Origin: Sclerodactyla briareus
Lineage: Eukaryota > Echinodermata > Holothuroidea > Dendrochirotida > Sclerodactylidae
Direction of reading: 5' to 3'
Assembly (NCBI GenBank): GCA_026419785.1
Contig: JAODTK010005799.1
Location: 62,001 to 126,000 of the forward strand
DNA length: 64,000 bases
A program made the position numbers and the translations under genes. Shown one piece after another: positions 5,481 through 51,810 of this stretch (positions within the stretch are counted from its first letter, which is position 1; each line of letters begins with the position of its first letter). The notes under the pieces were generated by a model. That model worked only from the letters and a program-made list of their open reading frames with translations. It was not told the DNA's origin and did no database searches.

Positions 5481-6290
5481 CTAGACATGTGTAGGCGGGT
5501 AAACCGCCCACGTGAATATCCCCGCTTTCGAGCAATCATAGGGAAGAAGATCTAGCACCCAAAAAAAAGACCCCATTTTGCTGCAGAAACCAAGATAAAC
5601 TTCATCCACCATTTTGGTTGCAATCCATGGAAGTTAAGGGCACATGAATTATGCAAATTTGACAACGGATGGCTTGAAATGACTTCACTCGTGAGGAAAA
5701 ACAAATGTAGCCCCCATACACAAGTTTTGTTCCAATCGGACAAAGTTTGGGGAAAATCGCCATATGTTTCAAGTGAATCGGAAAAAGCGCTAGTTCTGCG
5801 AAAAAAATCAAAATGACGCACCGTGGTGGTTCCATTGAGGCCCGGAACGGAAACCATTAAGTGGTCCAAAACGATCGCCATGTTCCGAAAAACGTGCATA
5901 TCTGCGAAAAAATCAGTTTGTCAAAAAATCCAAGATGGCCGCCGTTGGAGGGGTGTGGCCACGCCCACTTCGCAACTCGCTAAGATGTCTAAAAAAACAC
6001 ATGACGAAAAATGGGTGCCAAGTTTCGAGTAAATCGGACAATGCGTTGGAGAGCTAGAGCGTTAGCGAGAATAAAATACGTTCAGTCGAAATCCAAGATG
6101 GCCGCCGTTGGAGGGGTGTGGCCACGCCCACTTTCGAACTTTCCGAGATTCATTCAAGACAAACATGGGTGCCAAGTTTCGAGTAAATCGGCCAATGCGT
6201 TGAGACTAGAGCGCTAACGAGAAACGCGGCGGCGGGCGTGGCGGCGGCGGCGGCGGCGGAGACGTAGCATCCATGGACCCGGTGGCAGCC
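5481..6290 (-). mobile_element. Family H element, copy 1 (Helitron-like, non-autonomous)
   Basis: The left edge reads CTAG (5481-5484), nine bases, then the hairpin GGCGGGTAAACCGCC (5494-5508) followed by CACGTG and ATATCCCC. On the minus strand this is hairpin, nine bases, CTAG, T, the layout expected at a Helitron 3' end. The body contains two direct copies of a module of about 145 bp (about 5930 and about 6095) that include CAAGATGGCCGCCGTTGGAG and GTGTGGCCACGCCCAC. The other end is a GCG/GGC trinucleotide tract (about 6223-6263). It carries no open frame with similarity to Rep or helicase proteins. The Helitron assignment is inference; the family relationship to 28299-28845 and 38486-39092 is seen directly. 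Confidence 0.6.
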
Positions 6291-9149
6291 AAACTAACCC
6301 AGTGTACATACGCAACCCCTTGACCTACATTGGTCCCGGGGATATAATGAGGATTATTTTGGCCCGCGGAATACGCCATGAGCGTGCATGGGCCTGTTCA
6401 TATTCATTTCAATCTATGGTTCGCAAGAAGGTCGTCAAGAACGCCCCGGAAGTGCCAACAAACAACCTCATCCTAAACCCTCGCCTATACAGTGGATATA
6501 TAACGGGACAAATGGAACTCGGTACCACCGGTCTTTTTTCGTGGAGGGGGGGGGGGGGGCTGGTGTGGACGGTTGAATGATAGCCTCAACGCTCAACAAG
6601 GTTGTGACCTGGCTCCTGCCAACCTACTATTCACCAAAAACTGCGGGGGTCGATGCACATGTGCACTGTCTCGTTTGAATTTCTGTGGTTGGCTATACCT
6701 ACCCTAATCCCTGATCCTAGTCCCCAATCGAACAGAACGAACAGTACCCTAACCAATCAGAAAATACCTTCCGAAACGGTTGCCGTCAGCTAATTTTTTG
6801 TCCCACTCAGCGGATTTTTTTTCGATATGTTGCCGGTAAATTATAGTAGCAAGGGTTTAGGAAGAGGTTATACCCGGCTTGTCCTTCCCTAATCCGCCTT
6901 CGGAATTATTGGAAAACTGGAACATGATCATTTCGACAAAGGGGAATTCTCATGGATTTGGTTGGTATAGTGGTGTGATTCGACTATTAGGTGGGACAAA
7001 AAATGTTGCAGGCGGTATGAGTGGCAGGCTACAAAATTTTCTCAATTGAAATTCGGGCTAGAAAAAATCGGCCTAACATCGGCAACATTTAACCAGGGTT
7101 TGGAAGCCTTTTTTCCAAAATTTCAGATGATGATATTTCTTTATCTTCCCGTTACAATGGTCATGAAGGAGTACGACCTTTTGCTTATCTAGTTTTCATT
7201 TAGTAGAAACCGGATTCCTCGAGTGCGAATTCCAGCCAGTACGTAGGCCTATGCAACAAGTAGGACACACTCAATCTGCCACTTACTATATGATGTCATT
7301 ACAAAGTCAATGCAAAACGTGTGAACGAACATGGTCACCTGTAGACTAACAAAATTATTAGAAATAAAAAACGGTTCACATGATATGTTGTCGGGAAAGC
7401 CAGTATACATTTGGTCTTTTCATACTAAGGTACAGTGGCTATTGCGAAACGAAAAATAATTGTGACGTCACGGGTTGGGCTAGGAAATCTTTGATCGTCC
7501 CGCTGGTCCCGGTCGAGGATGTGACCCCGCCTCGTCGGAGCATACCATATCGCCACCACCTGATATTATCTTAGGAATGCAATAGGTAATTATCATATAC
7601 AGTCCATATACCGGTTATACATATTTGGTATAATTGTGTGGAGTTGGTGAGGTTGCGAAGGAGGGTGATTTTTCTTCTCTCTAATTACATGCTATACTCA
7701 ACAGGTCTAATTCCTCGCGCTTTGTTTTAATGAATATGTTTCTCCGCTATCTCGGCAATATGTGTTGTATTACTACTGTATATATGTATCGTGTGTAATT
7801 ATGCAATTAGTGAAATACGGGGTCGTACGTAACTCACGGTGAAATTAATTCCTATTTTGGGGGGCGTACAACTCGCGAAATTGACATTTTTTTCTGGCGG
7901 AACCCAACCCCTCTTGAGGTAATTCCCTAATATAAATGAAATTGTCTCACCTATTATGAGGATCTGTAATCTATAGGCTGTGGAGCAGGTATGGATGATG
8001 TTCACGCGGTGAGGCGACGACGTTGATGAAGAAACTTGTTTACGAAAGAAAGTACTCGTTTATTTTCTTATCAATGTTCTAAGCCGGTTTGCCTAGCTTC
8101 AGTGATTCGGTCGGAAAACCTTATATAGGTCCAGGTAAAGCCCAAAATAGTTAACTAAAGATTGATGGAAAACACCGGTAGTGCAATGGTTTGTTTTTGT
8201 ACGAGAATTATTTTTTTGTAACACACAGCTAATTAAACTTTTGAATTCCTAACGCCACTGCGCAATTTGTCCTCTGTTTGGTATTTCCAGCACTCTATAT
8301 CCAATGCGGGTGCTCCAAGACCCGATTGAACGCGAGACCAGAACAATGCAGTTTACGCGACCCACCTCAATCACGCATCTGGGTGAGGGGGGGGGGGGTT
8401 AAGGGTTCGCTCTAACTACCAACCTACCTAGATACCATCATAGCCAGGGTATATAGCCTAACGTATGCTATACCACTAACAAAACAACCAAGCGGAAAAG
8501 TGCACAACTGTAGCACTTGGTTCTGCTGTGATAACAAGTGCACGTGACCTACGCGGAGCAGACAGCCTTTGAACCGGCGTTTGATGTCTACCCCGCTCGT
8601 ATCAACCTCTTCATTCCATACTCATGAATACGCGTTCGGCTGTTTGCCAATACAAATGTTGATAGAATGATGAATAGCCCTTGGCTCTCGCATATCGTCT
8701 GTTACAGCAAGTTTCTGAGGCAGCGGACAAAGGTTTGCCTAAAGTTTGTCAGACCCCAGTCAGGTTGACCTTGAACTGAGATGAACATCCCATGTATGGC
8801 CATCCTTTTTTTCAAGCCTCTTTGGACACTGGCTTTTTTTGACTGAGGATTGTAGAGTCGGTTTCCCATTATTTTTTCGAGGCAGGGGGGACTGGGTGTC
8901 CATAAACTTCCAGGGGTCACAAATTTCTCTAGCAAAAAGGTCCGCGAACAGTGGTCATCCCTCTTCGGCAGTGAGACAAGAGTGCCAATGGCACATAAGT
9001 GATAGATATCGATAGTATGCTATTACAAGTACATGTGTGTTTTTGATTGGGTCATTCCATGTGCATCAGAACTGATTTTGTATTGACAATGCCATACTCC
9101 ATTGAATCATAATAGTTAAAATCAATTAATAACTGTTCTTTGGTCCCCA
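6291..9149. other. No recognised feature; G runs at about 6546 and 8388
   Basis: I found no protein similarity, RNA gene or repeat shared with the rest of the window. Open frames here are short and unconvincing. G runs occur near 6546-6558 and 8388-8398. Confidence 0.4.
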
Positions 9150-10000
9150 CACCTTGTTTCATCAACCACACCTAGTGAATAATGGACGATCCGTTGCATA
9201 AAGGCCTTTCGCCAGAATGACCCCTAGATGACTCTTTGACCTCAAACTCCTGAACACCCCAAACCTTTCAAATTGGAACACTGTACTGCAAGGTCGGCGA
9301 TCATGGGGGGGGGGGGACGGGGGACGGCGTCCCCCCCCCCCAATATTTTGGTTGAGGGACTCAATGTCATTTTGTCGCCCCCCAATATTTTGAGCTCGAC
9401 ACCTATTTCGCTGACACTGTATCCGACATATTCCATTAGCAATCGTGTTTAAACAATGCATAATGACCTAATGATCAGTTGAGTGAATTCTGCTTTTCAT
9501 ATCCGATTTTTTTTGCGCGCTATGCGCGCGGTATCTTATTTACCGGTAGTGTTCAGACATATGAACGTGCCTTGTGCATGAAAACACGTTCCTAACAAAA
9601 AAAAATGACTAAATTTATCGGGTTGGTCTTTATATCAATGAGACTTGTTTCTCCTTCATCCATATCGTTTGCATAAGTATCGGCGGGAGCTGTGATTTTT
9701 AAAATTTTCATTCATGGTTGTCCGACCACTCGTTGAAGTTTGGTGCACGGTCACAAACATATCACTATGAGGGCACACGGTGGACATCGAAAAATGTTCC
9801 AGGAACGCCCACAAAATTGCGTTTGGGGGGGTGGTGTCCCCCCCCCCCAAAAAGAAATGATTCCAAATTCAAGTGGCGAAAGGCTAAGTCCAAATATTGC
9901 CTTAAATTTTCGATGGCTCATGCCGCAAGGTGACAAAAAAGGGACAATTCGCCTCGAATTACCAACAAAGTGAACAACTTTTGTGTTTCGCCCCTAAGTT
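9150..10000 (+). mobile_element. Family Y repeat, copy 1
   Basis: The segment is co-linear with 47430-48100. Shared blocks in order are a G-run region, TTTTGGTTGAGGGACTCA, CCCAATATTTTGAG, ACAATGCATAATGACCT, GTTGAGTGAATTCTG, a TTTCTCCTTC block, GAACGCCCACAAAATTGCG, and CAAATTCAAGTGGCG with AAATATTG. The two copies differ by indels, chiefly around G and C runs (about 9305-9317 and 9333-9345). No coding capacity is visible. It is a dispersed repeat of at least about 700 bp of unknown class. Confidence 0.65.
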
Positions 10001-10440
10001 ATACTATTTGTGGGGTGGAATCATACAACAAACATCTCATTAACCTTGAAAACTTCAATCAAAACCCCTTTTTTTATTATAAACCCTTTAGCCTCCGGTC
10101 CTTTCCCTCCTCCCTCGACCACGCTTGATTTGGAACTGCAGTAGCCTAGCTATCAGACTGCGTGGATTTTCAACGCAATGTTTCTCCAATATGCTACTCG
10201 GAAGTTCCCTGCTCTTTCGGGCATGAGGTCATATCATGGTTGGGACATTAGAGCTTAAGGTATCGAATGTCCCAAATTTTTGGGTGCGATCCTGTTTTCC
10301 CTATATGGCGCACAATGGTTGGATTATTCTGGCCACAAGTTGAGTCAGTGGCAGCGATAAGAACCGAGGTCTGACAAAAAATTGTCCACCGTTACGAATT
10401 TTGATCACAAAATGCAAAGATTTGAAGCTTGGTAATGCAG
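10001..10440. other. No recognised feature
   Basis: Short open frames only, with no motif recognised. The right part (about 10300-10440) may be the flank of the family X copy that follows, but no second copy of this portion was found in the window to confirm it. Confidence 0.3.
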
Positions 10441-10600
10441 CCTGAACCCGGGAGAAGTCATTTCCATCCATCTGTGGGCTGCGCAAAAATTTCCTTATGC
10501 GCTCGGCGCCAACCTATGGTGGCGCTCCGCTTAGATAGTGTTTCTCGCGCCCCCGAAAATGTCTTGCCCCCCCGTATGAAAAGTCTTGTGACGCCATTGC
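10440..10600 (+). mobile_element. Family X, partial copy with a hAT-like terminus
   Basis: This copy retains the GGAGAAGTCATTTCC block, the core hairpin with CTTAGATAGT (10499-10540), a C run, and ATGAAAAGTCTTGTGACGCC followed by ATTGC. Read in reverse, the end begins CAATGGCGTCACAAGACTTT. The copy at 56090-56276 ends in the same way (CAGTGGCGTACCAGACTTTT reversed). A CAGTGGCGTA-type terminus is reminiscent of hAT inverted repeats, so the family may be a hAT-mobilised non-autonomous element. Confidence 0.6.
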
Positions 10601-10814
10601 TATTTGCAAATTTGAAATTAGAGTATTAAGCAGCACTTTATAGGGCGACCCCTTTTGAAAAGTTGGTGGCATGCGCGGTGCACATACGAACCAATAAAAT
10701 AGCCATCGAATATTCGGGCAGCGACTGCCACACATCGTGTCAAGACAGAATTCGATCATGTTCTGAATAGTTTATTCCAAAGATTGCCTACTTTCTGATG
10801 GGTGTCCCAAAGGA

Positions 10815-11345
10815 AAAAATCGAGCGCTTCGCGCAGTTGTCGGCTTTACTTCTGTTTATACTCATTTGGCCACAAACCCCTGTCTTGTCCTGATTGGAAG
10901 TGTCCCGCCCATGCGCCTGAGCTCCGCAATAGATAAAAATGTGGGCCGTAATCGTTGAGTAAAAGCTCAGGCCTATCTTAGTGATGGGTCAGAGAGGGTT
11001 CAGTGTGCAATGTCGTTGGTCAAATTGGATCTGCAAAAATCTCGCGCTTCGCGCGAACGTACTGTTGTTGCCTCACTTGCATGGTATTGAGAATGTCACA
11101 GCACCCCAACGCAACACCTTAGAAATTGATCCCTAAGGCCTATAAGTTTGGAGAACCTTCCTGAAATAAACATTTTTTAATCAATTTTAGGAATGGCCTG
11201 TTTTTTTTCTATTTCCCATATGGTACGGGAAGTGGCCGTTTCCTGCAATCTAGGGGTCTGTCAAACGTACAATTTCTGTGCGCTGCGCGCCACCTGGTGG
11301 CGCTCCGCTTAGATAATATTCCATCTGGGCCGTCCCTCCCATCGC
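10815..11345 (+). mobile_element. Family X, most complete forward copy
   Basis: This copy is the reference for the family. In order it has GAGCGCTTCGCGC (about 10822), the CATGCGCCTGAGC block, GAGTAAAAGCTCAGGCCTAT, CAATGTCGTTGGTCAAATT, the palindrome TCGCGCTTCGCGCGA (11042-11056), AAATTGATCCCTAAGGCC, TACGGGAAGTGGCC, GGGGTCTGTCAAAC, and the core hairpin GCGCGCCACCTGGTGGCGCTC with CGCTTAGATA (11281-11318). The reverse copy at 815-1400 matches throughout. The right end abuts the broken 3' part of the minus-strand LINE, so this element or its core probably landed in or next to that LINE. Confidence 0.75.
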
Positions 11346-11369
11346 CACACAAATCGCCTCCCTTGCTGT

Positions 11370-11932
11370 ACTGGATGAAACAACAAGACTCTGGTTCACT
11401 GTTCGAGAGAACAACAACACGACAACAAAAACCTGTATTTCCTGACGTTAGGTTTCATCTACAGGACTTCTTTAATAACTTTTTACTACATGGCTTCGAG
11501 TATAAGAAATGGGACTTAACTCAAATTACCCCACTTGCATGACATCCTCATCAATACACCAGAATAACTTGAAGACTTCGTCATCTGATTAGTCACCTCT
11601 CAACAGTCAGTATTTCAGAGTAGGCAGATTTCGCTTCCGTATCTTCTGATATTCCCAACTCTTCAACGTCGGGTCATCTTTTTAGCTCGTCTTCGAACAT
11701 TTTCGATCGTATTTACATCACCCCGATTGTGGGGTGCCCAGACTGGCCCAGCATCTTCCAAACGTCGTCTAACTAGAACCTGAAAAAGACACCAGACTGT
11801 CTCTCGTTTAAGAGGGGTGTAGGGGTGTGACACCCCCCCCTTCCGCCACAGGCCGTCGGCAAAATTATGCCCCAGTTGGCAAAATGAAGAAAATTGCAAC
11901 TTAAAAGAGGGTAACAATTGATAGTACAACAC
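11370..11932 (-). pseudogene. LINE-A C-terminal domain fragment
   Basis: The frame at 11663-11932 includes LVRRRLEDAGPVWAPHNRGD followed by an IENVRRRAKK stretch. This is the jockey/CR1 signature in which a conserved arginine, LEY, VW and P are followed by an 'IE-VQRRAT' motif. Continuing on the same strand through frameshifts are NLPTLKY, LLRGD, a YDED-like stretch, SPISYTRSH and a degenerate RVV--NS-PES (about 11690-11375), all typical of the same domain up to its 'WNSLP' end. The first third of the open frame (11800-11932) does not match and may belong to the adjoining insertion. It is a broken part of an ORF2-type polyprotein. Confidence 0.8.
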
Positions 11933-11934
11933 AG

Positions 11935-13090
11935 TTTAAAAGGAAAAAGCAAACTTTTATATATTCAACCCTTCCAACCCCAGAAATCTATGGTAGTATA
12001 GAACCAAACTTTGGTGCCCCAGTCCGGCAATGAAGACAAATGAAACGAGAAGGGTTAATACATGACCCTGGAGGTGGTAATGCTCAAAGGAAGGATGGAA
12101 GGTTTTGAAAGAAGAAAATAAAAAAAAAAAAAAAAAAATAATTTGTACATTTCAACCCTTACAAAGTCCTATATTTCTGGCTCAAAATGGCCTGGGTGCC
12201 ATCTCCGGCAATGCATAGTGTTTAGACTAACTTTAATTTCTCTCCCAGTCCGGCACTTGAAACGGAAGAGGAAGGGTTCTGAAGAAGAGAGACTGTAAAA
12301 CTTTTACATTCCACTCTTCAGAATATCTCGGTTCAAAATGGTCTGGGAGGCCATGTCCGGCAATCTGTTGCAGTACAAACGAACATTTTATGTGCCCCAG
12401 TCCCGGCCAATTGAAGGAACCTCTTGAATGATGGACGGAATTTCATCTAATAGAATGAAATTTCAGTGAGGCATGGATCAAACCTTCTCAGATTGAACGT
12501 CAGTCAATCGAGACAAAACGTTTCAGTCACTGAATCGCAGTGGAAAATCGACTGACTTCTAGTCCCGCTAGAGTATTCTTCAACATAAATTTTTTGGTCT
12601 AACAGACTGATAAAAATGTTGGGGCTGAAAAATTCAGCTGCCCATTTTAAAAGTGAAAATTGAAAGCCCCGGTAGAGAGAGGTTAAAATGTTTGGCAATC
12701 TATGGCAGTATAGAAATTCCACTTCACTGCCTGCAGCTTGAAACACTTGGGAAGGGCATTTCCTGCATCGGGGGCTACAAAACCAACAATCCTAGAAAAC
12801 GCTTGCGCGCCACAATGGTGGCGCTCCGCTGCGATAGTTACTACTCCCACCCTACTCGGATGTGTCCATCCCCCACCTCCAGGCCACAGATAAGAAGACG
12901 ACGGTACCACTTTAGATGCAGCCTAAAGCTAAAAACATTGTTAGTACCAGCTTTGTAGATCCAAGGGTACCTTGATCAAATTTCTAGTCTCTGCTCGCGC
13001 CGGATCTGCTGGTGGCACGGCCTCGTTAATCAAGCACCCAGCCTGCTACCGGGGTGCCCCGGCTGCAGACACACGTTTGGGGGCGGAAGA
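11935..13090. repeat. Block of diverged tandem repeats with a family X core, inserted in LINE-A
   Basis: Three or more diverged units, each with a TTCAACCCTTC-like start, an ATCTATGG/CAAAATGG stretch and CCCCAGTCCGGCAATGAAG or a variant, lie at about 11945-12060, 12140-12290 and 12297-12420. A related piece at about 12690-12760 runs into a family X copy with GGGAAGGGCATTTCC and the core hairpin GCGCGCCACAATGGTGGCGC (12803-12830). The block separates the LINE-A reverse transcriptase from its C-terminal domain, so it was inserted after the LINE. A run of A occurs at about 12119-12138. Confidence 0.6.
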
Positions 13091-14110
13091 TTTTATGACG
13101 ATTTTTCTCTATATATGAAGGCTGGGGTTAGTCGGCAAACACAGCATGGTAGTCGCAAAAAAAAGGGTACACGCCAAAGGAATGGTCTATCGACTCCCCT
13201 GCAAGTTACGAAAACTCTAATATCTTCCTCGCACTCTGAATTCTCTAAAATAACTCTATCACCCTTCTGATCGTAAATAATACTTTCTAGCAGGAAGCTT
13301 TGCTGCTTCAAAGTGTGAACTGCCAGCACCTTACCCATCAGGATGAACTTAAGAGCCAAGTATCTGACCAGACTTGGAGTTTTATCAACAAGACTATGAC
13401 TGTAAACGCCTAGTATCTTCAACAGTTTTAATTTACTGTAATAACTTAGTATCATCTGCAACCAAATGAACTTGCGGGCAACACATCAGGCACATCTTGA
13501 TATAATTACAAAACATAGAGGCCCACACCTTCCCGGAGAAGCCACTATGTAACCCCTCATGCTGGAAGATGAAACAACCATTCACTATACTCTTTGATTT
13601 CGTAGGCACCTAAAAATCCTGGATAAATTTTACAATTTGGCATAAAAATACCATGAGAAACCAACTTGCCGATCAACCTACGATGCGGCACTTCATCGAA
13701 AGCTTTCATAAAATCCACATCAATAAATAACCTATATTAACTACTTTCTTCATCTAAAAGTATGGGATCTCCCATAAGAAAACTAAAATTGTTTTTTTTA
13801 CTTAATAAATTACTTACTCTCATATTAATCATGCTGAGACCTGATAAGCTTTTCAAGGCAACTCATTAGCACATCAGTTAAGCTAACAGGTCTGTAGTTT
13901 CCTGGGTGTGATTTATCTCCTTTCTTAAAATAACAATGATTTATCAAAAACTATGGTTAGTGGCTATAACTAGCACATGAGCTAGTTCTTAAGTGCCTTT
14001 GGATGGAGCCCCCAAAACATCAGAATGGTCTATGACCAAGTTTATAAGTTATTGGGAAAGGCCCAACAATTGGGATCTCCCCTGCAGGCTGTAAACATAG
14101 GATTAACTAG
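13090..14110 (-). pseudogene. LINE-A reverse transcriptase fragment
   Basis: Reading down the minus strand, the landmarks are a GPDGVHP-like stretch near 14010, KKGDKSHPGNYRPVSLTDVL (about 13925-13865), LFIDVDFMKAFDEVPHR (about 13735-13683; the FID/AFD block carries the first catalytic aspartate) and ADDTKLLQ (about 13460-13437; the catalytic Asp pair). After these come a WSDTWLL-like stretch, a LKFHPD-like stretch and LENSECEEDIRVFV (about 13245-13205). These are in the order found in CR1/jockey reverse transcriptases. Several frames must be joined to follow it, so no functional enzyme is encoded. The open frame at 13093-13461 covers the portion after the Asp pair. Confidence 0.85.
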
Positions 14111-15700: not shown

Positions 15701-15704
15701 TATT

Positions 15705-17980: not shown

Positions 17981-17984
17981 TTAG

Positions 17985-18815: not shown

Positions 18816-18839
18816 CCAACACCCCATGCCCCTGCCAGG

Positions 18840-18905: not shown

Positions 18906-19084
18906 GCCCGTTTGCCCAAGCTTTCTCATGAGCTCTCAAACAAAAGGGTTAGCCATTCCCAGGTCGTGTTGGATACTGTGTGTTCAGGTGCTCGGTGTTT
19001 CTAAGCAATGGCTGCAATTAAGGACACACATACAAACCTACATTTCCAAATGGTCAGTCTGGATGGGTTTTAATGGGATGAACG

Positions 19085-19400
19085 AATTGCGAGTTGCCCT
19101 ATGCGTGAAATCTCCGTGAATGAAATTCATGAACTTATAGGGCCCATGGGGGACTAACCAGGAAGATATGAGAGATATGAGAAAGGTTACGAAATTCTTC
19201 GCACTTTGCGTCAATATGGCTGTCAGCAAGATGATGTATCAATCATTCTAAGATCAGTTAACTGCCTCTCTAACGGTCTCTCTGTTAATGAGTCTGTTCG
19301 ACTTTTCTTCATGATCAGGGGTGAACTTGGCGGATGGCTGCCCCCTAGAGATAAGGCCGGGTCAGGACAGTTGTGTGTTTTTCCGTGGAGTGATTGAATT
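19085..19400 (+). other. Possible coding remnant (unidentified)
   Basis: The plus frame reads MREISVNEIHELIGPMGD, a stop, then YEKGYEILRTLRQYGCQQDD and a Ser/Val-rich stretch to 19397. Composition and charge pattern look more protein-like than neighbouring frames. I do not recognise the family. A decayed exon or a transposon accessory frame are both possible; chance is not excluded. Confidence 0.2.
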
Positions 19401-28298: not shown

Positions 28299-28845
28299 CT
28301 GACATGGTGCATGGCGGTTAAACCGCCGACGTGCATACCCCACAAAGGCGTTTTTCAGGTCCAACTGAGGTCCACATCCACCAGGTGTTTAATTATGACA
28401 AACCCCGAGAAAACACAAATTGACTCTGGTGACCTGAAATCACCTTATGTTATTCGGACCAACTTTGTTCCACCCATAAAGTTTTGTGTGAATTAGACCA
28501 AGATGTATTTTCGCCGAAAAAAACAAGTTCAATCTCGGTGACCTTGAAATCAACGTCAGGTTTTTAGGGTTCCAACTTTTGTCCCCACACCAGTTTCGTG
28601 TAAAGCGGATAATCTCAGTATTTTCGAGTAAAAAACCGGCAAATAGAGGGAGAGCAGAAATGCAGTGATGCACACTTACGAACTCATCCGAGAATTCACT
28701 GGGGCGGACAAGTGTGACCCGTTTCAGTTCAATCGGATAACGTTACAAGAGTTATGCGCCAACGACTAGAGTTTCCGGCGGCGGAGACGCGGCGGCTAAC
28801 CCCTAAAACCACAATACCCGGGGACACTTATAGTGTCGCGTAGAT
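28299..28845 (-). mobile_element. Family H element, copy 2
   Basis: The left end has CTGACATGGTGCAT, then the palindromic hairpin GGCGGTTAAACCGCC (28313-28327) and GACGTGCATACCCC. The body repeats a module of about 110 bp twice (GACTCTGGTGACCTGAAATC at about 28421, then AATCTCGGTGACCTTGAAATC at about 28530). The right end is GGCGGCGGAGACGCGGCGG, then CCCCTAAAACCACAATACCC and a short ACACTTATAGTGT hairpin (about 28826-28838). This matches the reversed left end of copy 3. No open frame of note. Confidence 0.65.
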
Positions 28846-28849
28846 ATAA

Positions 28850-37970: not shown

Positions 37971-38485
37971 ATTAAGAGCCTATACACCTGTGACTTACAG
38001 GCAGTGTCCGATTCGAGATACCGTCGACCCAGGCAACATTCGCCTATTCAGTAAGCTATGTGTACTCTCTTCTTAGAAACCATAGCGCCATGAGCAACTC
38101 TTGATCCATCAATGAGAGATGCGGAGATTGGAGGCGTTTCTACGTGAAGAATTCACCATCACAACTGAAAGGTATATTTTTCCGCGGAATTTGGCCTACA
38201 AATGTGGCTGATTTCTGTGGGGTATATGAATTATCACTTTTCTTCCAACACTATTCCGTACTTCCTGTTTAATTGCTAAAAATGTTTATGATAATACGGT
38301 TTTACAAGGGATGATGAATAGTTGTTTGAAAAGTGCTCAATTGCCACACACTGCCTAAGGGTGGTTTTAATGAGCAGCCTATTGCGACAGCTGTTTTTAT
38401 CTCAAAGTGATAGAGACCCGATATGTATGCTTCCTTCGCGCGGGCTAGCTAAAGAGAACAGTCTATAATGTGGTACATAATTAAT
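37971..38485. other. No recognised feature
   Basis: Neither strand shows a convincing open frame or a repeat shared elsewhere in the window. Confidence 0.35.
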
Positions 38486-39092
38486 TCCCGCAACACTTTT
38501 GAGTGTTCGGGGAATATTGGTTTTGGGGGCTGTTAGCGCCGTCGCCGCCGCCGCCGTCGAACGTTAGCGTAAGACGCAATAAATCTTCAACGCTATCAGA
38601 TGAGCTGAACTTGGTACACATGCCGTCCTAGCAAAATCTCGGATGAGTTCGAAAGTGGGCGTCACTGCATGTCAGCTGCCTCTATTTTGCAGGTTCAAAA
38701 GGGAAAACAGGTTGGTCGATTACAGGAAACATGACGGTATTCAGGTTACCGGAGGTCAAATTTGTCGTTTTGGCGAAAAACAGAGTCAGTTCGATCACAT
38801 GAAACTTGTGAGTGGGGACAAACAAGTTGAGGCCCGAAAACATTGACGGTAATTTCAAAAAAGGTCACCAGAGGTCAAGGGCGTTTAATTGCGAATTTTC
38901 TAACTTCGTTGGATGTGAACGAAACTTGGAGAATGTGAATACAGTTGGTCCTGAACAACAGGTAGGCCGCATATCCAAAGCCCCAGAGGTTCAAATGGAC
39001 ATAAACTTCCGGTGCTTTCTTCAACGAGGTCAACAAAGGCATTCCTGCGAGGATATCTATACAGTGGCGGTTACCCGCCTGCACATGCTTAG
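38486..39092 (+). mobile_element. Family H element, copy 3
   Basis: The left end is TCCCGCAACACTTTTGAGTG with TTCGGGGAATATTGG (a hairpin at about 38487-38511), then GGGGGCTGTTAGCGCCGTCG and a GCC tract (38536-38556). The body has AACTTG..ACA modules, and a GTTGGTCCTGAACAACAG block (about 38945) shared with 51461. The right end is CAGTGGCGGTTACCCGCCTG with CACATG, CTTAG (39088-39092) and T. In this orientation both ends fit a Helitron-like element: 5' TC, and a 3' hairpin close to CT(T)AG. Confidence 0.65.
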
Positions 39093-39289
39093 TTTATGAA
39101 GACGATGTGCCGCTGACTGGAGGCCATCGTTACTGTAAGCTTACTGTGAGAAACTGTATTACTGGTCTTGAGGATTGAGTGATTGCGGATAGATGAAAAT
39201 GGAGGGGCAGCTACCCGAATTTCCAGGGGATTGAGGCTGAGGATTCCATGAAATTCCAGATATCAACAGGACTGTTGTAGTGCAAGTCT

Positions 39290-41280: not shown

Positions 41281-41290
41281 CTAGTAGAGT

Positions 41291-41960: not shown

Positions 41961-43190
41961 TTAACATTTTCTGAATTGATGGTGGATGTTCATGAATTTG
42001 ATTGACTTCATCATATATAGTTTCTGTTAGAAGAAAGCACTGAGACGAACAAACCATAGCTCCTGTGACAAAATTTTACGCTGTATAAGCTGCCGACGAG
42101 CAAACCCTCCTGATCCAACAAATTTGATTAGGTGATAGTGACTACGAAAAAACTGTAAATTTTATTTCCTCCTTTACCTCTTTGATTTGAGGCAAAGAAG
42201 CTCAGGCTGCTAAGGGAGTTGGAACATTTTAAGTTGGATTTCGGGTCAAAAAAAGCTGAGTTGAATGAGCATGAACTAGTTGGTGTTATAGAAACCAACG
42301 ATCGCGCAACCAGGCGAGACACTTTTGGCGATCGACCTTGTAGTGGTTAGTATGCCTCGCGCCTGCGCGGTAATCTTTTTATGGAGTTTATGCAGTAACT
42401 CACCTTACTAGAACCATGAGTGGTTTGTCGATGTATGGAAAGATTTTGCGCGAAGAATCGAACGCAACGAGTGCACGTCATCAGTAATCATGTGTGTCAG
42501 GGGGACGTAATTCGTATACAAAATCAGTGTAGCAGGGGGCGTGGCCTAACTATAAGTTTGGGGACTGTTAGCCACTGTTAGATGATGTAATGTGTCACAT
42601 GACTCGTCATCAGCCCCATCAGGTCACTTAATTGATGGCTAATGACGTAATTATCTAACAGTAACGTAAACTTAAAACGCAGCCTCGTATCATCACGAGC
42701 ATGTTTCAGTGCGCCCTATGATTTTTCAGCTGTGCAGAGAAACTCAAACGGCAATACTCCCCATGCATTCCATGGTTGATCAAAAATCTTCTGGTGGCCG
42801 GGATTGGGCCCCGCCTCCTGCATTTTGTTTGAGGAGTGGGAGTATATTTAATGAGGGGAATCTACCTGCTACCAGGTATGATGTAATCGGATTATTACAC
42901 TAGTAATAGTCTAATGCCAACAATTCGTGGGACCGGTATACTGGTTTGCCTTATTTGACACCCACCGACAAAATATAAGTTATAAAAAGACCACGAATGA
43001 CCTTGAACGTCGATAGTGATGTAATCATCAGGGGCCCGATGGGACGGATGAGATATTGTAGGCAGTTTGCCTGGGCACCTATAGTCATGGTGTGGCTTAG
43101 CCATAGAACCAGTTGCTAGGTTAACCAGAATGGGGGGGTGCCGTTGGTGGAGTACGGTGTCGGGTGATCCAGCATGTGGTGCACTCGCGA
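41961..43190. other. No recognised feature
   Basis: TTAGATGATGTAATGTGTCACATGACTC near 42579 and AATGACGTAATTATCTAACAG near 42641 form a loose inverted relation. No gene or named repeat was found. Confidence 0.3.
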
Positions 43191-43215
43191 AATTGTAGTA
43201 GTGTGCGTTGCCGTG

Positions 43216-43248
43216 GTGTTGTGTGTGTGTGTGTGGTGTGCGTGCCGA
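43216..43248 (+). repeat. GT microsatellite
   Basis: GTTGTGTGTGTGTGTGTGGT and following GTG units. The long minus-strand frame across it (42895-43299) reads His/Thr repeats and is not a gene. Confidence 0.75.
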
Positions 43249-43440
43249 TGTGTAGGTTTTTGGGAATATTTCCCCTTTGGAGTGGTCGACATTGTACAAA
43301 TTTTACGCATGCCTGATCGTCACAAAATTAGCGAAACGATCGCAAACTCGTGAAATTGATGGAAGACATTTGGGGATATGTTTCATTTTGGAGTGTGGCC
43401 AATTTTTTTTTCATATTTTTCAAGTTATGCTGCTTCCAAT

Positions 43441-43515
43441 GGCTGAATGATTGAAAATTTCGTAGCAGTGTGCAAAGGCACATATAACAGCTTTTTCCCA
43501 TGCAATCATTCAGCC
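43441..43515. repeat. Inverted repeat (13-bp perfect arms)
   Basis: GGCTGAATGATTG (43441-43453) and CAATCATTCAGCC (43503-43515) are perfect reverse complements with 49 bases between. This could be a MITE terminus pair or a chance fold in A/T-rich sequence. Confidence 0.45.
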
Positions 43516-45230
43516 GTAAATTACCAAAATGGGGGATTTTAGGGGAAAAAATTTTTTTTGGACCAAATTTTTAAATCGTTTCTTTTTCTCAGTATATTCA
43601 AGGTTTGACTACTGAATGGATGCAAATTTGCACCGAGATACAAAGTATCAAAACCACGGGTTTCCCACTAGCCGCTGAAAAATTTCCTGGAAGTTTCTAT
43701 GTCGCTATGTAAATACTTTTTTGGGGAAAATGGCTGTTTCCTTACATATTTTGATAAATTTTTTGTCTGTTTTGACAACTAGCAAAATAGGGCATAGAAA
43801 GACTGAATAGTTCCGACATTTGCTGATGGAGCCTGCAACTCCAGGTTTGCACTCTTGTTTATGATTGTAATTTCCTGATAACTTGGTGGTCACAAGCTCA
43901 TTCGGTTTCACTTCCTTTAAACCTGAAAACCATTGCCACTGTTAACCAAAAAAAAAACCATTCAGTCAGACTGTTTCAACGTATAGCCCGTTACGCCAGA
44001 TTGGTCGGATCAGAGGTTGTCCACGATGCACAACGGATTCTTCTCGAGCGGGCTCGTTAACTACTTGTAATTCGGTCTTTGACCCAGATGTTAAAGACAT
44101 CTGTTCTCTTGTCTAATTACCATTGATTTTTTTTTTTTTTTTTAAACAGGAACAGGTTTTAGAAATATCTAAAATGTTAAATTTACTGACCTTTAGAAAT
44201 GTTTTCATCTACTGTGTCATCCACTCAGCTCAAACTGACTCGATGTTTGCAATTGGGTGCGGCGACCTTCAGTGCTGAAGGTGTGGGGGGTGTAGTGGTA
44301 ACTGTTCCCGGTTATGGCGGGGGGTTAGATCTTGTGTTTTGGGTCACCCGTGGTGAGGGTCTGACAGTACCACTATTGTTGGAAACCGTGTATCAAACAG
44401 GATGTTCTGTCTGTCACCTAACCCCCCGTATTTCACTGTTTTTCTTCTTCCCCAGTTAAACCTTTCAAAGGGGGGGCACTCCACCCCACCCTCTTCCATA
44501 TACACTACTGGGCGTACGTTTTAAATTACCTTTAGATTGGCCTACTTGTTGAGAATGCCCATAAATCAATCCTTAGAGGTTTTGTCATAGGCCCTGGGAT
44601 TAGGGTATACTGGCTCACGGAGAGCTTAATAAACAGGTAAACATTGCAAGTTTATAGGCTGCGTCCTTGGGACTTGACCCAGTGATGAACAAACCACTGT
44701 TGACTATATGGCAGCAACGACAAGACAATATCAGTCTGTCCAGGGAAATCGTGTGATAATGAAAAGGTGGACAATCGGGAGTCATTCATGTGGTGATTTA
44801 CAGTAATATCTACACACTTTCACTTGGGTGGCCTCTAAAGTGCAGGGTCCACAACTACCCCTGCCTGAGGGCTATATATTCAGCCGACACTGGCACCCTT
44901 AGGTCAAATATTTTTCTATCCTGACACAAGCATCTTAAATTTTACTGAGTGGGCGGTGGCCACGCAAAGCTCTAATAATTCAAACGACATGTATTAGGCT
45001 CCCGAATGCATAGCGAAACTACATCTTTCACCCAGACGAACAAACTCCATTACTGCAACATCCCTCTAAAATGTTTTGTTGCCAAGATTTCAATGTCAGC
45101 GGTCAAATTAACAACATTCCAGTGTTTTAAGGCCGTCTTGATCTTTCAAACATGTGCGTTCCTTGAGATCTCGTGATAGGAACTTGTCGTACATTAGTCT
45201 ATTCACTTTAAGTTTTGTCTCAACAGAACG
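43516..45230. other. No recognised feature
   Basis: T run at about 44126-44142. The plus frame 44199-44459 (86 residues) has no recognised motif. Nothing else was assigned. Confidence 0.35.
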
Positions 45231-45440
45231 AATCTGGTCATCACAATTCACCCATGTCACAAGGTCGAGGTCAAACGAATCAAGAGGTCCAAGAGGTCGG
45301 TCACCAAGGGGTTCCTTCTCTCCATAGATATGCTTTATTTATGCCCTCTGCTTGTAATCCTCTCGTTATCGTACTCACATGCCTTTGAGTTCATTACCTC
45401 TGACCTTGACCTTCTATTGCACAAGAACAAATAAAAAATA
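45231..45440. repeat. GGTCA-rich segment
   Basis: CACAAGGTCGAGGTCAAACG is followed by AAGAGGTCCAAGAGGTCGGTCACC, and further on by TGACCTTGACC (about 45401). The wording is akin to the AGGTCA-rich repeat at 32040-32660 but too diverged to call a copy. Confidence 0.35.
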
Positions 45441-47429
45441 GGGGTCTTTCCTATAACGCGCGTTGCCCTATCTGCAACCTTAGCAATGCCATAGCCTGAT
45501 TCGTGCTCACAATAATTGTTACCTCTCATTACCTCGGATGACTTTTGGACTGGTAACAAGAACGATAAGTAAACCACATGTCGATTTGAACTCCATTGAC
45601 ATTTTGTGTGTTTGGAGATATCTGCTCAAAGAGGTAGCGCACACTACGAACACGCACATATGCATATGTCACGTAACTACATATAGATTCTGCTTTCTTA
45701 GCGTGGAATAAACAGAGACTCAGTGAGTTATTAATTAATTTCTGATAACCAGACTGACAGATCAAGAACAACGGAATCATTTACCCCGTCTTTTAGTAAG
45801 GGTAACGGTATATTTCAATGTCCCGTCCCCTTAAACAAAACGGTCACAATCTCGTCACAAACATTCAGCGGTGGCCTGTACTTGCGAAGAAACACTTGTC
45901 AAAATCCTTGTATATAGGGTTTTAAGACTGCCTCTTTTGCCTCTGATGGGCACTGGTCTTATACCAGAAATTCACTAGATATATACGATTCACACCCAGT
46001 GAAGAGTGTGGCGTAAAGAGGTGGTACTAACTTGGTAAAAAGACGCAAATTTTCTGTGCGTTGTTGTCGTCCTCTACCAACTTATTACGCCTAGTCCCAT
46101 GAGAAAACTCGGGCTAGCAGTGGACCTACCATTAGCAAAGGTAACTGAACCTGATGGCATTTTGTTCATCTATTTTGGAAGATAGGGGTGGAGTCTGGCA
46201 CGCGACAACGTCGTGTGGGTGCGGTTTTTGAATGAATGACAGATGGTGGTAGTAGTAGTGCTGCTAGCAGCGACGTCACAAGCCGCTGGGGACAACCAGT
46301 GGATATCTATTGGCTGTGTCCCCATTGAGTCTATCGGAATTGTGGAATGTCATTAGCGTATTACAGGGTTCTCGTAGTTCTCTAGAGCTCTACAATCCCA
46401 ATAAGACGTGGGTAGTTTTTACTGTAGGGTTCTTTCAGTATACTAGGAACTGCCGGCTTTGGCTCCACGATTTCAAGAGTCGGAACTAGTGTGTGTCGAG
46501 TAATGTCTGTTTTTTCTTTCTAGCACAGATGGGGCTAGGAGAACGTGGTGTAAAATGCACCTGTACGTTCACAATATCCTCCCCCCAACATTGCGGCTGT
46601 GATCCGAGAAAAACCGATGGATTGAGAATAGCATGGGCGGTTTTGAGAAAATGTGTTAATTTAGCATGCCCGTCGGAATGAAGAATAGGCCTATCTGAAA
46701 TCAAGTGACGGGGGGGCTGTTTTCAGTAGTTGCAGGTGCATGACTGCACGGACTAGTATTGAACTTTTTTCCCTTCAATGACCGGAATGCATTGAAATTT
46801 CCGTTTGTGGTTCTCAGGGGGGGGGGGGTGACTTTCGTTTCACCCCTGAGTCGCCCAACCGATATTTCCTATGTGGCACTAAATCTGTCTTAATTATTTA
46901 ATGTGTCCACATTTTCCAGGCCTACAATGAATCCATCGCTCATGTAAACTTGAGCCTGGGACTGATCGAAAGGCGCTGATAAACGGACTTTGAAGTAACA
47001 TTTTCGCAGGTCCGTGACGGTCTTCAGTGTAGTAACTCAGCTCGCGATTTTCAGTGTTGAGCTCAATCCCACACCACACCTCAACCTTACACCCCCTAAC
47101 TACACTCACCACACATCCTCGTGTAAACAACTCATAGTATTTCGCTCACAATGTCCTGTATTTGGACAGATCCACCCAGCAGACTGCTTGCAATAATGGA
47201 CTTTAGTTGTTTGCAGCTGCATTCAAAGATTCCTTCTTTCCTGACCGCCCACACAAATAGCGAAAAAAGTGCGTTCAGACACCCATGCAATGAACCCGTG
47301 CCCCCTCTTCCCGACCATCGTCCCTTGTTTCGCCACGGCACGAATTATGGAGAAATACGTCAACCAGGGATTGCGTGAATAATGCTTGGAGATAACCAAA
47401 AAAATTCATAAACATTACTCTGAAATACC
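45441..47429. other. No recognised feature; G run at 46818-46828
   Basis: Open frames on both strands are short, overlapping and without motifs. No window-internal repeat was recognised. Confidence 0.35.
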
Positions 47430-48100
47430 TGGTAAGACGCGACGGGCACAGGGCGGCGATTTTCCATGGGGGTGGGGGGGGGGTGGGGGGGGGGGGGGGG
47501 GGGGGGGGGGGGCTGGCGGGCGTCCCGTCAATAAGTTTTGGTTGAGGGAACTCATTGCATTTTGCCTCCCCTCCCCCAATATTTGAGCCCGACTGCTATT
47601 TTTTCTAACACTGTAATCCGACGTATGCAAAGCACCATGTTCAACCAATGCATAATGACCTTGATGTCATGTTGAGTGAATTCTGGCTTGAATTTTGCCT
47701 TCAGAAAATGCCTGCAATTTCCTCTGGGTTGTTTCTATCAACGAAAACGGGTTCTCCTTCAGCTTTATATCGGTCGCTCGAAGACTGGCTTTACACTTGG
47801 TGTTGCTCCTTCATTGGACGTTGTCGATTTCCTGGGTGACCAGTTACTTGAATAAATGAACAAACTAATATACGAATTATTTATTTATGGGTTTGACCAT
47901 AGGAAACTTTGACGTGCCGGTACCATACTACACTACATGATGGCCCGGTGCGGCATCGGAAAGGGGTCAGGGAACCGCCCACAAATTGCGTTGTCAAAAG
48001 ACTGATTCAAATTCAAGTGAAGAAAAGGACAAGTACAAATATTGATTGACTTTCCGATGAATGCCCAAAGTGGGCAATTTGCCCTGTTGGCAAATTTTGG
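47430..48100 (+). mobile_element. Family Y repeat, copy 2
   Basis: Co-linear with 9150-10000: a long G run (about 47469-47512), TTTTGGTTGAGGGAACTCAT, CCCAATATTTGAGCCCGAC, CCAATGCATAATGACCTTG, GTTGAGTGAATTCTGG, CGGGTTCTCCTTC, GAACCGCCCACAAATTGCG, and CAAATTCAAGTGAAGAAAAG with CAAATATTG. The G run is longer than in copy 1. No coding capacity. Confidence 0.65.
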
Positions 48101-48336
48101 GTCTGTCGGTAAAAGAAGGCAGGGTCGTCTGTTGAGAAAGCTTGAGAGAGCGGATTGGGGAGATAAGGGTTATTCTGTTTTCCAGTTCTCCATTTGTATA
48201 AACTCATTAACGAATCCAATCACCCGACGCCTATTAGTTGAAACCGATCGTCAAATACTGATAACATCACAGCGCCGTGCACGCCAGTATAGCTAACATC
48301 AGCTTGAAGACAGGCCAGAATCGCCAGCAACTTTTC

Positions 48337-48585
48337 AGTCGTTAGTGAAGTAATGGAATTGAAGGGCCTCCATAAAGACGCCGCAGGCCCACGAGTCGAG
48401 GGTGTCCTGCGCGGGCCAGCTAATGCCAGCTGGTCTTAGCCAATCACTATATCCAACCAGTCAGTTAGTTGAAAAAGTATGGAATTGAGGGCCTTCCATT
48501 AAAGACCGCAGCCCACTGAGTCGGAGGGTTGCCGCGCGGGCAGGCTAATGCCCAGCTGGTCTTAGCCATCAATATATCCATTATG
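48337..48585 (+). repeat. Tandem duplication, about 122-bp unit
   Basis: Unit 1 (about 48337-48458) and unit 2 (about 48459-48580) share ATGGAATTGAAGGGCC-type starts, a CCATAAAGACGCCGCAGGCC-like stretch, a GTCGAGGGTGTCC/GTCGGAGGGTTGCC stretch and CAGCTGGTCTTAGCCA near the end. GC-rich hairpins are possible within each unit. Function unknown. Confidence 0.7.
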
Positions 48586-48589
48586 ACAT

Positions 48590-49430
48590 ATTTCTGGCTA
48601 AATTGACTCAAGCTCAGTGTGAGTTTCAAGCCCATGACAAATGGAATAGAAAGGTGTGACAGTAATAAGTCACTGACGCTCTAGCTAATATAACACGGAC
48701 TGTGAACTGACGTACCATGCACAGTAGCCGAAACGTGTCATCAGTATCCATGAAAAAATACAGGGTGGACAATGGCGCTTTAAGATGTAAACCGAAGTCC
48801 TTATAAAGAGCTGTTGTTAACCTGAAAGGTATGGATTCATCAGTAGGAATCACACCTCAGAAGTTCCCCCATGTGGCACCAATTGCACATTGAGGAGCCG
48901 AATTCTCAATCCCCCTCCTCCCCCATATAAAGGATCGATCCAGTGCAGCGGTGTGACGTATACTGCTCCAATGAATATACTGCTTCTCTTTTCGACGTCT
49001 TATTCACATGAATGTCTTTAGAAAGATCATATACCAGATATACTAGCCTAATATTCGACACATTTCTACGCACCGTATAAGCACTGTGTTTTGTACCCGT
49101 ATAACTAGTCTGGAGTTGGTTTTAAAATTTGTGGAACCCCCCACCCCCCCGCCCCGCACCCCACCCACCCCCGCACCCCATCCCCCTCCCCCCTCAGGAG
49201 AAATGCTCGATCCTACTGCTGCGCTCCGGCCAGTTAGCATGTCTTAATAAACAGATAAAAGGGCAATCAGTCAGTCAGTGCTCGTTTATGAAGTCAATAC
49301 TAACAAACGGTAACAGGATCGAAGTCGCAGTGTTCTCAATCACTCAGCAGTTGAAAAACTTGCGGGCGGACCGTTGCGTTGGTGGGGCCTTATATCGCGA
49401 TAAGTTAGTCTCGACGTCACTGCTGGTAAA
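48590..49430. other. No recognised feature; C-rich tract at 49137-49195
   Basis: A C-rich, CACCCC-type tract produces the Pro-rich frame starting at 49129. No gene was recognised. Confidence 0.4.
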
Positions 49431-50639
49431 TGTATTGCTCATGGCGGGTAACAATTTTCATAAAAACCGCCAAGTCATTGAAGGTCATTTAAAAAGCACT
49501 TAGGGGTCAAAAAACTGATTTTAGTACTTTTTATGCAATAGCACTGGTGTGTTCACAGAATGCAAAATGCTGTCGGAGTGGATGTCTCACATGGAGAGTA
49601 AACAATTTCATAGCAACAGTCATATCATTCAAGGTCATTAGAGGTCACTTGAGGGGTCAAAAACTGTTTTTGGCTATAATCGGGAAAAAATTGAATATCT
49701 GCGCAGGCGGATGGGTCACATTTTGAATAATTGTTAGACTGCATGTGTGTGACTGGATCATGAAATTTGTCTCTGTCGGGTGGTCAGGTGGGTGAAGGTC
49801 GAATCTTGAATAAAGTGCTATTTAAGAGTTACGGGCAAAAAAAAACTAGAAACTGTGATTTTTGATATTGATTGAGCTTTGGGCTTTATGGAGAGCAAAC
49901 AACTCCCGCTTCGATCGGTTACTTTGGTAGTTACCAGGGGTCAAAGTTCAATTTTTATACCTTTTTTGCAATAACATTGGGCATGGTCATTGGAATGCAA
50001 TGCTTCTAGGAGTGGACCCATCACATGGAGTGTTGTGTAAACCAATTGTCATAAAAACCCGCCAGGTCATTGAAGGTCTTTAAAGTTAATTAGGGGGACA
50101 AAAACTGATTTCAGTACTTTTTCGGCAATAATAGAACTGTGTGTGTTCTTCAGAAGCAAAAGGCTCCAGGAGTGGATGATCCACATGGAGGAGTAAACAT
50201 TCGCATAAAAAAACTCTCATATCATTAAAGATCATTCGGGGTCAATTAGGGCGTCAAAACTGTTTTTTGGCTAATAATCGGAGAATTGAATATCTGCGAG
50301 GCTTGGATGGTTCACTATTGTGATATAATGGTTGACCTGCATGTTTGTGACCCTGAGATGAATTTGACCTCTGTCGGGTGGCCGTTGTGGTTAAAGGTCG
50401 CATCTTGAATAAATGTGTTATTTAAGGAGCACCTTGTGCGGGGGTGTAGGGGTGCCTCATACCAATTAACAGTGCATTATGGAATGGACCCATTACCTGT
50501 ACACGTTGTCGCTTCACAAGTCTTCTATAATGACTTCTTTCCACGAATATTGTCGGTTTAATGCTTCACCAAATGTTCTTGAATAAGGAGATACGGGGAT
50601 ATATACGTTGGCGGTTTACCCGCCCGACACTTTTTATAG
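49430..50639 (+). mobile_element. Family H element, copy 4, with a tandem pair of about 595 bp
   Basis: Two long units repeat in order: AACTGATTTTAGTACTTTTT (about 49512) / AACTGATTTCAGTACTTTTT (about 50104); GAGTGGATGTCTCACATGGA / GAGTGGATGATCCACATGGA; TTGAATATCTGCGCAGGCGG / TTGAATATCTGCGAGGCTTGG; CTCTGTCGGGTGGTCAGGTG / CTCTGTCGGGTGGCCGTTGT. The right end is ACGGGGATATATACGTTGGC, the hairpin GGCGGTTTACCCGCC (50610-50624), 11 bases and ATAG (50636-50639) followed by T. The GC-rich 5' end is not recognisable, so the copy is probably truncated or rearranged there. Confidence 0.5.
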
Positions 50640-51080
50640 TTGTAGTTTGTAGTTCAGTGGGGTTGTCACAGGGTTGTAATGGGCATAGGCCTATATGATA
50701 TCATCATATGCGAGCCCTGCCAAATGTATCAATCAACAGCGCACAAGGTTGCATGAAATACCATCACAAGTAAAACAACTGGGGGAGGGTGAGCGGTGCA
50801 CTGAAATGGAAGCACATGTGGTAACAAGGCATTCGATTATCATTGAATTTTATTCCTTATACTCTAAACGCGTTTGAGGTTTGTTTCGACAGATTTCAAA
50901 CTGACAAAGCGTGGCCTCGAATTTGTATAGACATGACGGACCAGTTAAATGTACATTCGAAGTGTTCTGAGAATTATGGGATGGGTTGTGTCGGGTCGCC
51001 CGCGCCCCGCCTTTCTCTGCCGGAAACTTAGGTGTTAGGGCAATAACTCTTCGGGTTCATCCGAATCGTTTGATCGGAAT
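50640..51080. other. No recognised feature
   Basis: Between two family H ends. Short frames only. A C run at 51091-51106 marks the start of the next element region. Confidence 0.3.
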
Positions 51081-51106
51081 TCGTACGTATCCCCCCCCCC
51101 CCCCCC

Positions 51107-51667
51107 GTATAGTGAAATATCGGATGGGTCGGATGCCTAGTGCCTATTCTTTGGCACCGCTTTCACGGGAAATACAGAGTAGTCCGATTTACACGAAAAC
51201 TTGTGGGTGGAGATTTGAAAGTTGGTCCCTGGAACGTTACGGGTATAACAAGGTCACAATAGATCAAAATTGTGCAATTTTTTTTTTTTTCGGTTTTCCG
51301 AACTTGGCGGATTTGAACGAAAATTGGTGGGTGGGACAAAAGTTAGCCCCGCAAGATGACGGTGATATCAAGTTCACCGAACTCGAATGTGTTTTTATGC
51401 GCTTCCTCAACTTCGTCGAAGATGAACGAAAACCTAAAGAATGTGCACTGCATGCAGTTGGTCCTGACCTGAACAACAGATACAGGCCGGGTAAGGGATT
51501 CCAAAAATACTGGAACTGAGGAGGAGGTCAGGTAACGGACAAACGTGAAAACAGGATCAGGTATTGTGCTTCCTATAATTGTCACATGTTCGGAGGAAAC
51601 TTGGTGGAATAGACAGATACCCTGAAAGTCGAGGTAGAAAATTAATGAGGATCACATAGCGGTATTT

Positions 51668-51709
<42 letters not shown>

Positions 51710-51810
51710 CCTTTTTTTTTTTTTTTTTTTTGTTTTTTTTTTTTTTTTTTTTTTTTTTGATTGCGGAGAGATTACACGTTGGCAGTTCACCCGCCTGTCT
51801 TGATCTGCGC
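51107..51810 (+). mobile_element. Family H element, copy 5, with poly-T
   Basis: The body has GGTGGGTGGGACAAAAGTTA-type modules and a CAGTTGGTCCTGACCTGAAC block (about 51459) matching copy 3. It ends with AGATTACACGTTGGCAGTTC and CACCCGCC (imperfect hairpin 51781-51795). A T tract of about 90 bases with three interruptions lies at 51667-51758. The 177-residue plus frame at 50986-51519 runs through this repeat and is not called as a gene. No CTAG-like end is seen in this copy. Confidence 0.5.

Follow-up and report, generated by a model that had tools for sequence, protein, structure and literature searches.

The window analyzed here, 64,000 nucleotides of Sclerodactyla briareus DNA (contig JAODTK010005799.1, positions 62,001 to 126,000), raises the question of what five related hairpins, scattered over it in both orientations, represent. 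An earlier note, made from the letters alone, had read them as the terminal hairpins of one non-autonomous, Helitron-like family, the first copy of which ends in CTAG before a T. We found that the five hairpins are the 3′ ends of one dispersed repeat family, here called family H, and that this family is very probably a non-autonomous rolling-circle transposon family of the Helitron2/Helentron type, a type also named HLE2. The earlier assignment is therefore supported in outline, and it is the subclass, canonical Helitron, that gives way to Helitron2/Helentron.

All five hairpins are present as listed in that note. The exact 15-mer GGCGGTTTACCCGCC lies at 5494 to 5508 on the minus strand and at 50610 to 50624 on the plus strand, and variants of it lie at 28313 to 28327 (minus, one change, GGCGGTTTAACCGCC), 39066 to 39079 (plus, one base shorter, GGCGGTTACCCGCC), and 51781 to 51795 (plus, two changes, GGCAGTTCACCCGCC). 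With up to three mismatches, the 15-mer gave 8 strand-wise matches in the window, against 0.79 expected and a maximum of 4 in 100 shuffles. These matches correspond to four of the five sites (three of them matched on both strands) plus position 1482, which is no family site; the 39066 site is missing because it is shorter, so that the pattern is unable to match it. The genome to which the window belongs (319 Mb in 3171 contigs) contains 340 + 334 = 674 exact copies of the 15-mer and 0 + 0 of its reversed control. Furthermore, a profile of the shared 3′ end recovered all five window sites; the profile had been trained on copies w1 to w4 among others, and w5, which lay outside the training set, was found with an E value of 0.0071 in 64 kb. 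We infer a family size in the low thousands of copies from a count of the exact 15-mer alone, which is exact in two of the five window copies. A scan of 181 kb, covering the surroundings of 20 chosen copies and of two relic loci, yielded five further ends, three of them within the array at locus L013 described below.

The loci that we examined (twenty of up to 8 kb and forty of 1.2 kb around exact hits, plus L003) were fetched by the presence of the 3′ hairpin. When the copies were aligned on this hairpin, the typical 3′ end proved to be GCGGGGATATACACGT, then C, G, or T, then GGCGGTTTACCCGCC, ~9 bases, and CTAG-TT, beyond which the DNA is dissimilar. A TAG lies within 20 nt of the hairpin in 49 of 65 copies (w5 excluded), as CTAG in 40, TTAG in 4, ATAG in 4, and GTAG in 1. 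The base after it is T in 49/49 and the second base is T in 45/49, and the third shows no preference (0.08 bit). Likeness between copies ends at or before the 3′ end in 21 of the 26 compared and continues past it in the other 5 (L011, L019, L025, w1, and w4), in the case of L011 because this element is nested in another family copy. Four classes of 3′ end can be told apart, which we lettered ourselves: A (TGCACATGTCTAG), B (TACACATGTCTAG), C (AGGCGATGTCTAG), and D (CGACATTTTCTAG), with 18, 14, 3, and 3 members, respectively, in a set of 38 elements. Complete copies are ~0.4 to 4.2 kb long.

The five window copies, which the earlier note had listed side by side, are unequal in state. The class B copy w1 (5481 to 6346, minus strand) is complete, running from a 5′ T-TATATCCCC at 6346 to a CTAG end at 5481 that is followed by TT. 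Both ends are also present in the class A copies w2 (28299 to 28848, minus), which ends in GTCAG before TT, and w3 (38482 to 39092, plus), which ends in CTTAG before TTT. Copy w4 (49440 to 50639, plus) is assigned to class D because it resembles L016 and L026; it ends in ATAG before TT, and no recognizable 5′ end was found for it, homology starting at ~49440. Copy w5 (50945 to 51810, plus; 5′ end set by eye) is degenerate and class A-like, being 75% like w2 over 79 bp, with a poly-T inside and its CTAG end lost. Thus, the CTTAG, ATAG, and CAG-T ends reported earlier all exist, the CAG-T belonging to the second copy, but the fifth copy has no CTAG.

At the opposite side, the earlier note had taken tracts of GGC/GCC for the ends and had pointed to the 5′ TC of canonical Helitrons, and neither proposal held. 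Read from the sequence, the true 5′ ends of w1, w2, and w3 lie beyond the tracts, at ~6346, 28848, and 38482, and the elements start with T-TATATCCCC instead of TC. The typical 5′ end is T-TATATCCCCGCAACACTGTAAGTGTTCGGGGATATTATGGTTTTGGGGGTGTAGCCGCC, beyond the GCC tract, and the order along an element is 5′ T-TATATCCCCGC, GCC tract, often tandem modules, GCGGGGATATA, 3′ hairpin, and CTAG(T)|T. The 5′-terminal TATATCCCCGC is the reverse complement of GCGGGGATATA, which directly precedes the 3′ hairpin; pairing of TATATCCCCGC with CGGGGATAT, slightly further in, can also give a 5′ hairpin. These are asymmetric terminal inverted repeats (ATIRs), seen in w1 as a 5′ ATIR at 6338 to 6346 (TATATCCCC, minus) and a 3′ ATIR at 5515 to 5525 (GCGGGGATATT, minus) and in w3 as a 3′ ATIR region at 39046 to 39061 (TGCGAGGATATCTATA, plus). 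The earlier note held that terminal inverted repeats at both ends would speak against its reading; they do not, because in Helitron2 they are expected, in asymmetric form (PMC3627910). 5′ ends could be assigned to 38 of 66 copies (20 among the first 26 and 18 among the next 40), those of L039 and L059 being retained despite low profile scores and that of L059 being placed by eye. Nineteen of these 38 copies have an intact ATCCCC; in them, ATATCCCC is preceded by T (15), any base, A (14), T (16), and T (18), i.e., mostly TNATT, which suggests TNAT|T as the target.

The 5′ and 3′ repeats within elements tend to change together. CCCCAC at the 5′ end is paired with GTGGGG at the 3′ end in L020, L025, and L027, CCTGC with GCAGG in L024, and CCCGC with GCGGG in L019; the two ATIRs are mismatched in L022 and L023. 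Local match scores between the two repeats run from 14 (L027), 13 (L020 and L025), and 12 (L018 and L046) down to 3 (L022). Within-element matching in 38 elements summed to a score of 303, against a mean of 273.5 with shuffled partners (P = 0.00025); the P value was 0.041 when partners were shuffled inside the 3′-end classes and 0.0018 for class B alone. One column pair in the 5′-hairpin stem reads A-T in 12, G-C in 8, A-C in 2, and C-T in 1 of the 30 copies aligned, with a gap in 7; this pair alone passed the filter among all column pairs, 8 short-loop copies being excluded. Folded singly with DNA parameters, the 66-nt stretch around the 5′ hairpin of w3 (38484 to 38515, plus) gave −13.4 kcal/mol and a z score of −3.67.

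The elements lie within T|T, with no target-site duplication longer than Ts. The T|T sites and empty sites that the earlier note had anticipated for such a family are found in the Ts following TAG and in one nested site. The fixed-length duplication that it had named as counterevidence is absent from the flanks of 16 copies inspected by eye, where no direct repeat longer than Ts was seen between 12-base flanks, and from the one empty site. There, the L011 element sits inside another class A copy, of which L024 is an uninterrupted homologue: L024 reads GGACATAATTTAATG, and L011 reads GGACATAAT-element-TTAATG. The site restores to GGACATAAT|TTAATG with no duplication beyond Ts, given a T at each element end.

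The hallmarks of Helitron2/Helentron elements are asymmetric terminal inverted repeats, two hairpins, and T|T insertion without duplication (PMC3627910, PMC4067079). We assign family H to this subclass because of its T-TATATCCCC start, 5′ hairpin, asymmetric inverted repeats, and T|T location; the 5′ hairpin includes the 5′ ATIR, and the 3′ hairpin lies near the 3′ end. Transposition would then join the element strand into a T|T target. No long open reading frame or protein match was found in the window copies, a statement that covers the window's open reading frames, the other copies not having been scanned against protein families. Family H is very probably non-coding and non-autonomous.

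The likely helper would be a Helentron encoding Rep/Helicase/Endonuclease, and only broken remains of such a gene were found. The earlier note had looked toward a full-length Rep/Helicase relative; relics exist on contigs C2413, C3088, and C2120, none of them complete with both family ends. A Helitron_like_N search identified C2413 (one Rep region in two frames) and a weak match on C2926, where a pattern search of the 3.1-kb locus L031 showed no family ends. Among its best candidates, a PIF1 search gave C3088 alone, and the helicase piece of C3088, used as a query, also found C2120. These searches took the best candidates only (4, 3, and 4) and gave few Rep/Helicase matches, their sensitivity being without a positive control in this assembly. 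The Rep piece on C2413 contains IEFQQRGSPHAH, with S at the motif position where Helentrons are reported to have S and Helitrons L (PMC4067079). C3088 and C2120 each carry helicase pieces with an endonuclease-like piece after them on the same strand, which is the Helentron arrangement (PMC4067079). With its two frames combined, the C3088 endonuclease piece matched Exo_endo_phos with an E value of 6.3e-5 and 23.3 bits, just under the curated 24.5; separately, the frames gave an E value of 0.16 and no match, and the untrimmed piece matched no endonuclease in Pfam and none among Protein Data Bank sequences. C2120 matches this piece with an E value of 2.9e-19. The helper pieces are frameshifted or interrupted by stops. 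A Helentron-type helicase-endonuclease survives in this genome in relic form.

One refinement of the Helitron2/Helentron reading would make the C2120 locus the autonomous partner itself, a Helentron whose Rep/Helicase/Endonuclease gene runs antisense to the family ends. On the minus strand of C2120, a family 5′ end lies at 514827 to 514549 (E value of 4e-47; 3e-17 with the 5′ profile), just past the gene; antisense endonuclease and helicase pieces follow at ~513.8 to 512.7 kb, and pieces of family modules, oriented like the 5′ end, lie on the other side of the gene between 510842 and 508859. This order (508859 to 514827, L078 to L081) is as expected for an antisense gene inside a family element, and reversed RepHel genes have been reported in some Helitron2 elements (PMC3627910) and in Helentron-Da-40 (PMC4067079). 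However, the minus strand shows no family 3′ end down to 497500 (best E value of 1.1), the C2413 Rep piece used as a query found no Rep piece there, three family-like matches on the plus strand fall in the same stretch, and the pieces could be independent truncated copies. We therefore regard this identification of the partner as possible but somewhat doubtful.

The reading of family H as a canonical Helitron1 family, with a 5′ TC, a single 3′ hairpin, CTRR, and A|T insertion, is very unlikely. A 3′ hairpin with CTAG before T is indeed present (65 copies examined, 49 of them with TAG and 40 of these with CTAG), but the 5′ ends begin with T-TATATCCCC rather than TC and are accompanied by asymmetric inverted repeats and a 5′ hairpin, and the two bases preceding ATATCCCC are mostly TT. 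A miniature inverted-repeat transposable element (MITE), or another cut-and-paste element with terminal inverted repeats and target-site duplication, is less probable still. Short inverted repeats do lie near both ends, and some similar families were formerly annotated as MITEs (PMC4067079); against this, the repeats stand at unequal distances from the two ends, and neither the flanks, by eye, nor the nested empty site shows duplication beyond Ts. That the hairpins arose by chance in GC-rich simple repeats or by misassembly, as GCC tracts inside the elements and many small indels in the sequence might suggest, is hardly credible given 674 hits versus 0 in the control and, by eye, common ends amid differing flanks in the fetched loci.

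Several observations weigh against the Helitron2/Helentron assignment. Only 38 of 66 copies have an assigned 5′ end, partly because forty loci were cut at 1.2 kb, and 16 of 65 copies lack a TAG end within 20 nt. ATIR matching gave a P value of 0.30 in class A alone and 1.0 in classes C and D (3 elements each); in the first 20 elements it was 0.010, rising to 0.11 without L025 and L027, and common descent of the CCCCAC/GTGGGG subfamily contributes to the matching. Of the seven window end stretches folded singly, only the w3 5′ end clearly beats shuffles: the w1 3′ end has a z score of −1.89 and the remaining five have z scores of −0.5 to −1.0, so that the 5′ hairpins of w1 and w2 (the latter weak, at 28815 to 28842, minus; z score of −0.63) do no better than shuffles. 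There is one clean empty site; at the same position, one T is missing from L028 and L051, and ATAAACTTCAATG stands in further class A copies (e.g., L017 and L018); a second candidate, L055 versus 18965 to 19199 of the window, misaligned at the join. Internal tandem repeats are missing in 5 of 20 elements (L017, L022, L024, w2, and w3). As to the helper, no complete autonomous partner with both family ends was found, the family 3′ end was not found at C2120, and the family ends near the C3088 and C2413 pieces look like separate copies; the C3088 copy (178719 to 179743, plus) is taken as a separate insertion because it has its own 5′ and 3′ ends.

The earlier note's internal tandem modules are real in many copies, 15 of 20 on self-comparison, with the five exceptions just named, and their number varies. 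Repeat offsets are ~107 to 123 bp in classes A and B, ~151 to 157 bp in w1, L020, L025, L026, and L015 (the last also with 250 bp), and 590 bp in L016. The modules of w1 occupy 5926 to 6223 on the minus strand (5926 to 6071 and 6089 to 6223, 83% identity). The two modules of w4, ~590 bp apart (49452 to 49826 and 50043 to 50426, 78% identity), share their 590-bp units with L016 and L026. Such modules would grow via replication slippage, rolling-circle concatemers, or unequal exchange. Upstream of w4, at 48348 to 48580, lies a 125-bp unit in 1.8 repeats. Locus L013 (G000:C94:3600-11600) is a head-to-tail array of ~1.98-kb units, each holding a family copy plus other DNA. Here the transposon is caught up in a satellite-like array, and because it is a tandem array, its four ends do not represent four insertions.

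The internal modules are rich in the motif AGGTCA: over 38 elements (31,038 bp), the element strand has 129 copies and the opposite strand 11, against a mean of 7.05 and a maximum of 14 in shuffles. Exact AGGTCA-N4-AGGTCA, the DR4 arrangement of a nuclear-receptor-type site, occurs 24 times, against a shuffled mean of 0.005; the controls were 200 shuffles with our own approximate dinucleotide method. DR4 is borne by 18 of the 38 elements (A, 8/18; B, 7/14; C, 0/3; D, 3/3), and the window positions, 38862 and 49632, each fall within a family copy. Conservation of the half-sites does not exceed that of the surrounding module sequence (percentile ranks of 0.30 to 0.71 in class A and 0.49 to 0.74 in class B), so that common descent of the modules is the simplest account. 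It is unlikely that the elements act as vehicles for ready-made nuclear-receptor-type sites; if a receptor did bind the modules, the family would scatter such sites genome-wide in module-sized steps.

Family H is a new member of an already known element type. Like Helitron2 (PMC3627910, 2013), it has a 5′ ATIR at or near the 5′ end that forms a 5′ hairpin, a 3′ ATIR immediately preceding the 3′ hairpin, a 5′ T, and insertion by Ts, mostly without duplication. It differs in its own termini (TATATCCCCGC / GCGGGGATATA / GGCGGTTTACCCGCC), in a 3′ ATIR that lies ~34 bp from the end in w1 versus 20 to 30 bp in Helitron2, and in a candidate RepHel without demonstrated family ends. With the Helentron-associated HINE / DINE-1 elements (PMC4067079, 2014), it shares a non-coding nature, inverted repeats located close to the 5′ terminus and ahead of the 3′ palindrome, a TT target with variable Ts, and tandem repeats in some copies, and its candidate helper shares with Helentrons the S of the Rep motif and an endonuclease after the helicase. 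The 3′ repeat lies slightly nearer the end, at ~34 bp in w1 against 38 to 60 bp in the mite families; family H differs further in modules of up to ~590 bp and in a helper known only as relics. Pacific oyster Helitron/Helentron elements with satellite-like central repeats (PMC8268682, 2021) likewise have conserved end boxes around short tandem arrays, and many of the arrays there have a box on just one side; the likeness is one of build, and monomers of 160 to 180 bp prevail there, whereas family H has offsets of ~107 to 123, 152, 250, and 590 bp.

No account of family H was seen in the abstracts surveyed; Repbase was outside the comparison, so the family may already be catalogued. It has been proposed that pairing of the 5′ ATIR with the 3′ ATIR sets the end point of Helitron2 replication (PMC3627910), and several end classes with co-changing 5′ and 3′ repeats in one genome bear on that proposal. 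Family H further offers an example of tandem modules growing within a rolling-circle element, and of numerous non-coding copies whose helpers, so far as they were found, are all broken. It does not overturn the known picture.

Elsewhere in the window, a 174-amino-acid open frame at 59148 to 59672 includes a stretch reminiscent of HARBI1-type transposases; it has no Pfam match at an E value of 0.001. Repeated stretches pair 847 to 1519 with 11321 to 10695, 1561 to 1655 with 48069 to 47979, and 9305 to 9492 with 47494 to 47685. At 4365 to 4716, a 22-bp tandem repeat is followed by an inverted run of the same 22-bp unit.

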